Positions 10,807 to 54,114 of a stretch of DNA of 64,000 nucleotides are shown here, one piece after another. A model generated the notes under the pieces. It did no database searches. It was given only the letters and a program-made list of their open reading frames with translations, and had not been told where the DNA came from. Made by a program: the position numbers and the translations under genes. Source of the stretch: Flavobacterium sp. 140616W15 (GTDB lineage Bacteria; Bacteroidota; Bacteroidia; Flavobacteriales; Flavobacteriaceae); contig NZ_CP033068.1 in assembly GCF_003668995.1 (NCBI RefSeq), positions 620,001 through 684,000 of the forward strand, given 5' to 3'. How positions within the stretch are numbered: position 1 is the first letter of the stretch; every line of letters begins with the position of its first letter.

Positions 10807-11685
10807 CTAATTACTAATTAAGCCATCAACCATTACGAGTTTTCTGTCGGCCATATTGGCTAGTTCCTCGTTGTGAGTCACTATTACAAAGGTTTGCCCG
10901 AATTCATCACGAAGTTGAAAAAATAATTGGTGTAAATTTTCTGCCGAATGGGTATCTAGATTTCCAGAAGGTTCATCGGCAAAAATAACATCGGGTTTAT
11001 TGATTAAGGCTCTTGCAACGGCAACACGCTGTTGTTCTCCGCCTGAAAGTTCGCTAGGTTTATGATTTATTCTGTGTGATAAACCTAAATATTCTAAGAT
11101 TCTTTTAGCCTCATTTTCGGTTTCGCCTTTTGGTTTGTTTGCCATAAATGCGGGGATACAAACGTTTTCTAAAGCGGTAAATTCAGGTAATAGTTGGTGA
11201 AATTGAAAAATAAAACCAAGATTTAAATTTCGGAAATTGGATAATATCTTGTCTTGTTTGTTTTTCTTTTTAAAATAACGATTCATATAAATCGCTAGTA
11301 CAAAAAGAGGCAGTAATAAAGCTGCAATGATAATGTATCTAAAGGTATCGTCAAATATTGTAAGCTTGAAGAAAAATAAAAAAACAAGTAAGCATAAAGT
11401 ATAAATACAACCTATCCAGGAAACCCATTTGAAAATTTTTTCTTGTTTAGAATTGTCAGTTTCTACATCTTGTAATTTTAATACATTTTCTCCGTTTATA
11501 ATCAGAGACGAATCTGTATTTATTTCAGGTTTATCGAGTGTTCCTAAAATTTGCAAAAGGGTTGTTTTTCCTGCTCCAGAAGCACCAACGATAGAAACAA
11601 TTTCTCCTTTTTTAATATGCAAATCAACTCCTTTTAAAACCTCAAGTTGATCGTAGAATTTATGTATATTTTTTGCTTGTATCAT
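10807..11685 (-). CDS. LolD-like ABC transporter ATPase with an inserted membrane hairpin
   Basis: From [17 protein letters not shown] the protein has 292 residues. Walker A is GASGAGKT (34-41), the Q-loop glutamine lies in [20 protein letters not shown] (158-177), signature LSGGEQQ (213-219), Walker B VIFADEP (233-239), D-loop SGNLDT and switch histidine in IVTHN. The [12 protein letters not shown] block is that of LolD, the ATPase of the LolCDE lipoprotein exporter, normally about 230 residues. The extra length lies at about residues 75-146: a stretch with two hydrophobic helices ([20 protein letters not shown] and [18 protein letters not shown]) and basic flanks ([16 protein letters not shown]). 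Both ends would face the cytoplasm, so the fold could survive and the ATPase could be tethered in the membrane. No LolC/E-type permease gene is nearby. An in-frame start at 11712 is less likely than 11685. Confidence 0.85.
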
Positions 11686-15286: not shown

Positions 15287-16356
15287 TTAAATTTTAGACT
15301 CTAAAGCTTTCATTACATCTACTAATACCTGAACGCTTTCTATTGGCATTGCATTATAAATAGATGCTCTGTACCCACCAACTGAACGGTGACCTGGTAA
15401 ACCAGAAATATTAGCTTCTTTCCACATGGCATCAAATGTAGCTGTATGGTCTGGATTGTTTAATAAGAAAGTGACGTTCATTTTAGAACGATCTTCAACT
15501 GCTGCTGCACCTTTAAATAAGGGGTTTCTATCAATTTCTGCGTAAAGTAAAGCAGCTTTTGCATCGTTTAGTTTTTCAACTGCTACAACACCACCTTTTT
15601 CTTTAATCCATTGTAATGTTAATAATGAAACGTACACTGCAAAAACAGGAGGAGTATTATACATACTTTCTGCTTTGATATGTTTTGTATAATCTAGCAT
15701 ACTAGGAATTGTTCTTCCGTTTTTACCAAGAATTTCTTCTTTAATAACCACTAGAGTAGTTCCTGCAGGTCCCATATTTTTTGAGCTCCAGCATAAATTA
15801 AATCAAATTTAGAATAATCTAAATTACGAGAAAAGATATCAGAACTCATGTCACAAACTACTGGTACATTTGTTACTGGGAAATCTTTCATCTGAGTTCC
15901 AAAAATGGTGTTGTTACTTGTACAGTGAAAATAATCTGCATCGGCAGGTATTTCGTAACCTTTTGGAATATTGTTGTAATTTTCTTCTTTAGATGAAGCT
16001 ACAGTAATAGTTTCTCCAAAAAGTTTTGCTTCTTTTATAGCTGCTGCCGCCCAAGTTCCTGAATCTAAATAGGCTGCTTTACCGTTTTCTCTCATTAAAT
16101 TATAAGGAGCCATTAAGAATGCTGTGCTTGCACCACCTTGTAGAAATAAGGCTTGATACCCTTTTCCTTGAAGTCCTAATAATTCTAAAGCAAGGGAACG
16201 AGCTTCTTCCATAACAGCAACGAAATCTTTACTTCGGTGTGAAATTTCTAAAATAGATAGTCCTGAATCATTAAAATTTAAAATAGCTTTTGATGCTTTC
16301 TCAAAAACTTCTTGAGGTAAGATACTTGGTCCTGCGCTGTAGTTGTGTTTTTTCAT
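15287..16356 (-). pseudogene. serC: Phosphoserine aminotransferase, interrupted by a one-base frameshift
   Basis: The first part (from [17 protein letters not shown], start at 16356) reads to AGAQK and then runs out of frame to a stop. The second part continues at [16 protein letters not shown]. Adding one A to the A6 run (T run at 15777-15782 on the plus strand) gives AGAQKNMGPAG, the SerC sequence around the pyridoxal-phosphate lysine (K in AGAQKN). The repaired enzyme is about 356 residues, the usual length, with all blocks present ([40 protein letters not shown]). It converts 3-phosphohydroxypyruvate to phosphoserine and also serves vitamin B6 synthesis. Because serA is intact next door and the rest is perfectly conserved, a sequence error or very recent loss is more likely than decay. 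Confidence 0.85.
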
Positions 16357-16452
16357 GGTGTAGTTAAGTTCCAATATTTTTTAGAAACGCAAATTTCGGG
16401 AATAGGAGTCAAAAAATCGTTAAATTATTCGCAATAATTCTAAGATTTTAAC

Positions 16453-53092: not shown

Positions 53093-54114
53093 ATGAAAAT
53101 AACCAATTCAAAAATTTTAGTTTCTGTCGTTATACCAGTTTATAATTCAGAGAGATTCATTTCTGAAGCTATCGAAAGTGTTTTAAATCAAAGTTTAAAG
53201 GAAATTGAACTAATCCTTGTCGATGACGGTTCTACCGATAAATCATTGATGATTTGTGAGCAATTTTCACAAATGAACGAAAGAGTAAGATTGTTAGAGC
53301 AGAAAAACTCGGGAGTTTCAAATGCTAGAAACAATGGTTTGAAGTTGGCTAATGGGGAGTATATTTTTTTTATGGATTCTGACGATACAATTGATTCAGA
53401 ATTCCTTAGTACTTCTTATGAATTAGCTAAAAAGCAAGATTTAGATATTGTCGTAATTGGAGAAGATTGCTGTAAGCGTTTGCCAAACGTTTATGCGCTG
53501 CCTACAATGGCACAATTACTCAAGCATGATTTTTTATTAAAGCATTCTGATATAAGATTTCCAGAGAATATACAACCCTGTGAAGATGGATTGTTTTCGC
53601 ATCAATTACTTGCTTTAACCACAAGAGTTGCGGGAAATCCTAGTGGGCAATATCATTATAGACATCATGAAAATCAAAATCATAAATCTATTAATAATGC
53701 TGTAGGTAAGGTACTGGTACAAATTCCAAGATGGTTTGAAATTCTAGACGATTTTTATAAAAAAATAATTTATATAATTCTCATTCTTTGCATTTAGCAC
53801 TTTTTATGGAACATGAACCATTTCAATTGAGATATCTTTCTATGCCATTGGATGCAGATCAAAAAAAATATTTACATAAGTTGATAAAGGAATTTACACA
53901 AAAAAATGTTTTACCTTTTTTGAAAGAGGAAGATAAGAGGAAATTAAATGCTTATTTTTTATTTTTTATAAATTCCCCTAGTCATGTTGATTTTGAGAAT
54001 TATTATAAAAGATTAAAATTAAAATGTAAAGTAAAATTGTTTTTTGTTAAGGTTATACCGATTTCAAAAGTTAGAAAAAGAATGCGAAAAGAGATAAGGT
54101 CAAAAATTTATTAA
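53093..54114 (+). pseudogene. Family 2 glycosyltransferase, interrupted by a one-base frameshift
   Basis: The first part has the GT2 start VSVVIPVYNSERFISEAIESVLNQS, then LILVDDGSTDKS and the DxD motif MDSDDTIDSEFL, and runs to HHENQNHKSI. At an A7 run (53759-53765) the frame ends with IILILCI. Adding one A continues as YKKNNLYNSHSLHLALFMEHEPFQLRYLS and reads to the stop at 54112-54114. Product about 340 residues, a usual length. The second part (53788-54114) has no start logic of its own. It heads the plus-strand run 53093-57815; the next gene begins at the base after its stop. Confidence 0.85.

Follow-up and report, generated by a model that had tools for sequence, protein, structure and literature searches.

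The window analysed here, a stretch of 64,000 nucleotides from Flavobacterium sp. 140616W15 (contig NZ_CP033068.1, positions 620,001 to 684,000), contains on its minus strand a lolD-like gene for an ATP-binding cassette (ABC) ATPase (10807-11685; 292 amino acids plus stop codon, frame open throughout), into which a 72-residue stretch with two hydrophobic helices is inserted in frame (residues ~73-144, 11254-11469, edges ambiguous by 1-2 residues). The protein is LolD-like by kind and the inserted membrane hairpin is a new variant. With moderate confidence we regard the hairpin as a membrane anchor and as a brace beside LolC/LolE. The gene encodes the genome's only close LolD-like ATPase, which on balance probably belongs to a lipoprotein-releasing ABC transporter with two separately encoded LolC/LolE-like permeases. 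Solved LolD chains are soluble proteins of ~220-240 residues (218-241 in the 11 solved chain sequences) without membrane helices, whereas this protein has 292 residues including the two hydrophobic helices and is presumably not soluble.

A search with the insert region gave 45 matches at E<=0.01 among 111 candidates (~5.8 billion proteins). An ABC domain was found in all 45, 39 of them are 292 amino acids long, and wherever an organism is named it is a Flavobacterium or '[Flexibacter] sp. ATCC 35103'; the 11 named carriers are F. frigidimaris, F. bizetiae, F. piscis, F. azizsancarii, F. aquidurense, F. plurextorum, F. oncorhynchi, F. hercynium, F. pectinovorum, F. sp. SLB02 and F. sp. YO12. 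When 398 Flavobacterium genomes were sampled, the insert profile matched 47 of them, once each and in open frames of 292-352 codons. With an insert-less LolD query, 382 of the 398 genomes, including all 47 insert genomes, showed a single match at E<=1e-80, and 335 of these 382 were without a match to the insert profile. Carriers outside Flavobacterium were found neither in a family sample (2/397 genomes and 1/237 genera matching, all of this genus) nor in a phylum sample (7/395 genomes and 1/170 genera, again all of this genus). The concern of the original prediction that relatives might reveal the insert to be common was not borne out, as within the samples it occurs in a single genus.

That prediction, made from the sequence of the window alone, had located an insert of about 70 residues with two hydrophobic helices at 11240-11470, corresponding to residues ~72-149, and the position derived from related genes matches it. 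The commonest length of insert-less genes is 220 amino acids (6/23; range 216-231; 23 genes from 26 related loci, three loci having no match to the motif word). Because this is 72 below 292, the insert was assigned to residues ~73-144; it sits between residues aligned to E. coli LolD 78 and 82. The expectation that no ATPase motif is disturbed was likewise confirmed in an alignment of 32 insert proteins (31 of the 45 homologs and the window protein). Invariant in 32/32 are the Walker A motif (GASGAGKTT, residues 34-42, 11560-11586), the Q-loop glutamine Q161 (11203-11205), the ABC signature LSGGEQ (residues 213-218, 11032-11049), the D/E of Walker B (VIFADE, residues 233-238, 10972-10989) and the H-loop histidine H271 (10873-10875), all on the minus strand. 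The key ATPase residues are also invariant across 59 rows, including 16 nucleotide-binding domains (NBDs) at 30-43% identity.

Five parts of the hairpin were distinguished on the minus strand: a conserved N-terminal flank or stalk (residues 72-86, 11428-11472), hydrophobic helix 1 (residues 87-106, 11368-11427, within the model helix 75-106), a short inter-helix turn that is predicted to be periplasmic (residues 107-113, 11347-11367), hydrophobic helix 2 (residues 114-134, 11284-11346, with proline 126 in at least 90% of rows) and a basic C-terminal flank or stalk (residues 135-147, 11245-11283; net charge of 133-147 about +5). The best 19-residue Kyte-Doolittle mean exceeds 1.6 for both helices in 35/35 distinct genes, while the best window outside the insert reaches 1.33. 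The letters of the helices drift, with up to 31/48 residues differing from the window protein, and the hydrophobicity threshold was passed by both helices in 33/33 genes compared to 1595/6600 simulations of random change. In summed residue insertion energies, helix 1 averaged -1.75 (from -3.67 to 2.75) and helix 2 averaged +0.83 (from -1.96 to 2.38); on this scale the best other window of these ATPases has +6.2, and the four best windows per permease range from +1.4 to -3.9, 7/8 being at -1.2 or lower. Mean net charges in 34 genes were +5.1 for the C-flank, -0.2 for the turn and -0.4 for the N-flank. Basic flanks had been proposed on both sides, which holds for the strongly basic C-flank only, the N-flank not being net basic. 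Both hairpin ends are predicted to be cytoplasmic by the positive-inside rule. Four lines of evidence, namely hydrophobicity, charge, selection and a confidently predicted fold, thus support the proposed membrane hairpin with two cytoplasmic ends; on one scale helix 2 is borderline, and membrane insertion is what these data suggest.

The insert is under purifying selection, which is strongest on the flanks and the turn. Ratios of nonsynonymous to synonymous substitution rates (dN/dS) were obtained from 34 equal-length genes, for which 18/561 pairs (not independent of each other) lie at dS<0.7 and 95 at dS<1.0. Given first at dS<0.7 and then at dS<1.0, dN/dS was 0.03 and 0.04 in the NBD, 0.07 and 0.11 in the N-flank, 0.15 and 0.16 in helix 1, 0.05 and 0.13 in the turn, 0.27 and 0.29 in helix 2, and 0.05 and 0.08 in the C-flank.

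An AlphaFold2 model (mean predicted local distance difference test (pLDDT) score 87.7) combines a normal LolD fold with helices at 75-106 and 113-155, the latter running unbroken from the hairpin into the side helix of LolD (residues 145-155, 11221-11253, minus strand). Residues 149-155 of this side helix align with E. coli LolD 82-88 (R152 corresponding to R85), and 145-148 were added by extension. Both the fold and the continuous helix are model predictions. The underlying alignment consisted of 16 of 26 diverse NBDs and 42 of the 45 homologs, three short fragments being left out; the diverse NBDs came from two pattern scans, which gave 13 and at least 120 stretches, and 26 NBDs passed the similarity test. 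LolD relatives in viral contigs were not found in two scans. In an earlier AlphaFold2 model built from 32 similar rows the NBD was poor (mean pLDDT 53.5), and helices 68-106 and 113-152 were confident. By fold comparison, 216 residues superimposed at 1.0 Å on 2pcj and 217 at 1.4 Å on 9rlc_D, and none of the 50 matches listed covered the insert (206-217 of 292 residues aligned).

LolD (TIGR02211) is the best curated family for the protein (E 1.5e-74, 250.2 bits, match split in two stretches), with 184.9 bits for the best non-LolD family. The 11 best PDB sequence matches are all LolD chains, and the best fold match, 2pcj, is named LolD in the PDB sequence table. The next ATPase in the same genome scores 125 bits versus 647.8 for this gene. 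Taken together, the protein resembles LolD of LolCDE (E. coli; Aquifex 2pcj) in NBD fold, ATPase motifs, side-helix arginine and two LolC/E-like permeases, and differs from E. coli LolD in that its gene is not beside lolC/E. The insert-less LolD-like proteins of other Flavobacterium (e.g. L023, 221 amino acids), which lack the hairpin, are by similarity its orthologs: over residues ~144-292, identity is 82-91% in 20/21 insert-less genomes of the genus and 72% in the remaining one, G016. In the short stretches around the genes, one neighbouring gene is common to 26/35 insert and 36/52 insert-less loci.

Two full-length LolC/E-like permeases are encoded in the genome (C1:4134353-4135528 and C1:4552561-4553781). 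Their lolCE-family scores of 172 and 165 bits both lie below the family cut-off of 362.45, and among solved structures their best relatives are LolF and LolE. The two genes and lolD lie at three separate, unlinked places, in contrast to E. coli, where the lol genes form an operon. The permeases of 15 of the 47 insert genomes were compared with those of the 15 best-scoring of the 335 insert-less genomes. Each permease had one whole-length match at E<=1e-80 in 30/30 genomes, and no gapless column separated the groups by disjoint residue sets (0/406 and 0/412); the coupling-helix stretch varied alike in insert and insert-less groups (12 rows per permease). In E. coli LolCDE the LolD side helix touches the coupling helices and R85 is a contact residue (PMC11671585). 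The aligned R152 is conserved, and in the model the hairpin connects to this contact helix. Since the permeases are present whole and without a separating column, the hairpin appears to supplement the permease contact rather than to replace it, and the suggested replacement is not supported.

One position of the side helix goes with the insert by a switch of charge: residue 150 (window 11236-11238) is K in 42/52 insert-less genes and D/N/E in 33/35 insert genes. Compared to the 32 nearest insert-less genes, LolD positions 180 and 186 also separate the groups by frequency.

In the mechanism that we favour, a 72-residue helical hairpin would have been gained where the side helix, which contacts the permease coupling helices, makes its first turn. 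This hairpin would cross the inner membrane twice, N-in and C-in, and helix 2 would run straight into the side helix, whereby the coupling interface would be braced. Each LolD of the dimer may thus be held in the inner membrane by its hairpin, beside LolC or LolE, while the ATP cycle, the push on the coupling helices and the other permease contacts would remain as in E. coli LolCDE. Several points weigh against this anchor and brace. Entry of the hairpin into the membrane, its topology and place in the complex, the bracing role and assembly with LolC/E are each inferred. Residues 71-80, where the hairpin leaves the NBD, are modelled with less certainty (block mean 60). By residue energies, helix 2 is weaker than 7/8 of the permease windows, with values as high as +2.75 (helix 1) and +2.38 (helix 2) in single genes. 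No permease column tracks the insert, so that no specific new contact is visible. Furthermore, viability in E. coli was impaired for the Q-loop/coupling-helix residues Y93, T302 and T307, not for side-helix residues, according to a part of PMC11671585. Finally, the score of 250.2 bits is below the NCBIfam LolD equivalog cut-off of 307.75. Two insert-less Flavobacterium orthologs miss this cut-off as well (270.7 and 267.1 bits), and therefore the gap seems to reflect mostly the divergence of the lineage; the protein is for this reason called LolD-like.

We consider it considerably less probable, yet the most serious alternative, that the hairpin is a tolerated passenger, inserted once at a permissive loop, which enters the membrane and adds nothing, selection only keeping it harmless. 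This would agree with the heavy replacement tolerated by the helices, with the permeases that have no separating column and with the 335 of 382 LolD-bearing genomes without an insert-profile match. On the other hand, at dS<0.7 the flanks are about as tight as NBD residues 1-71 (dN/dS 0.05-0.07 versus 0.07), although at dS<1.0 they are less tight (0.08-0.11 versus 0.06), and the length is fixed in 34/35 distinct genes. Also the residue 150 switch is at odds with a passenger, as is the fact that no clear loss was seen, though one of two trees would allow one. With the insert columns removed, a tree of 87 genes needed two changes, with 10% of 200 bootstrap trees needing one; without seven long-branch insert-less rows (80 rows), one change sufficed, on a weak branch (35/89). 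From these sequences, the insert was probably gained once, in one Flavobacterium lineage. The tight flanks and the fixed length speak against a passenger, short of proving a role.

A more far-reaching form of the anchor and brace, which we regard as tentative and slightly less probable than the passenger, is that this LolD is a hybrid of NBD and transmembrane protein. Two hairpins would add four helices to LolCDE, and helix 113-155 might carry NBD closure into the bilayer beside the coupling helices, as a second mechanical path or as a side wall for the lipoprotein site. We know of no such path or wall in other ABC transporters.

It is improbable that the hairpin docks a different inner-membrane protein, such as a Flavobacterium-specific factor of lipoprotein sorting or quality control, instead of bracing LolC/E; no candidate for such a partner emerged, no search aimed at one having been made. 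Such docking would fit flanks that are conserved while LolC/E have no separating column; the drifting hydrophobic faces, however, argue against a tight helix-helix partner, and no link to lifestyle is evident, since 47/47 insert genomes are at least 4.0 Mb (the two smallest incomplete) and insert-less genomes extend up to 6.7 Mb. Marginally less probable still is that the ATPase serves another permease, a MacB-like or other FtsX-type exporter, rather than lipoprotein release, with the hairpin as part of that system. In favour are the lack of linkage to the LolC/E-like genes, the score below the curated LolD cut-off and the 12 FtsX-domain matches in the genome, but LolD is its best family by a wide margin, the next genome ATPase scores far lower, and four other ATPase matches lie at most ~2 kb from FtsX-domain matches on the same strand, which are likely their own partners.

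With regard to the origin of the insert, a donor was not found among small proteins, the own genome and plasmids. Among 4133 candidates of ~51-163 amino acids, three matched the profile, two having an ABC domain and one being an unannotated 110-amino-acid piece. The next-best match in the own genome had an E-value of 0.008 and lies in a 1477-amino-acid frame; the plasmid search with the insert gave no match. Third-position GC is 0.269 in the insert and 0.271 in the rest of the gene. Total GC is 0.282 versus 0.357, lower as hydrophobic codons would give. At both insert edges the same short pairs of residues (QD, QN or KD) reappear (seven insert and five insert-less genes), which hints at a short target duplication, the pairs being too short to weigh.

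Extra elements in an ABC NBD with ATPase motifs kept are also present in the ABC-F arm, the Rad50/SMC coiled coil and the CFTR regulatory insertion. To our knowledge, these inserts are soluble, lie at other positions and in no case form a membrane hairpin. In line with the original prediction, which knew of no ABC ATPase with such an insert, narrow searches of open-access papers found none with a membrane hairpin inside the NBD fused to the helix that contacts the coupling helices. As far as we know, ABC ATPase subunits reach the membrane only via their permease. A naturally occurring LolD-like protein that is under selection and has a membrane hairpin of its own, fused to the helix touching the coupling helix, would be an exception to this rule, and in a transporter described as essential in E. 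coli (PMC11671585). 'LolD' does not appear in the main text of either PMC11885536 or PMC13103446, two of the papers found for LolA/LolB with F. johnsoniae. Insert and insert-less orthologs, with permeases that have no group-specific column, would constitute a natural experiment on the limits of LolD recruitment and power transmission.

That the insert is a sequencing or gene-calling artefact is next to impossible and was rejected: although other genes in the window look split between frames, the same insert occurs in the same frame in 35 distinct homologous genes, 34 of which encode exactly 292 amino acids, so that the frameshift pair considered in the original prediction is excluded, and dN/dS of the insert parts is low (0.05-0.27; 18/561 pairs, dS<0.7). 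As for these other genes, the overlapping frames at 15287-15775 and 15751-16374 (minus strand) appear as if one gene, presumably for a phosphoserine aminotransferase, were interrupted by a frame change; the assembly may be at fault here, or the gene itself may be broken. The overlapping open reading frames at 53093-53797 and 53788-54114 (plus strand) lie in different frames and look like one split gene, which we assume to encode a family-2 glycosyltransferase.
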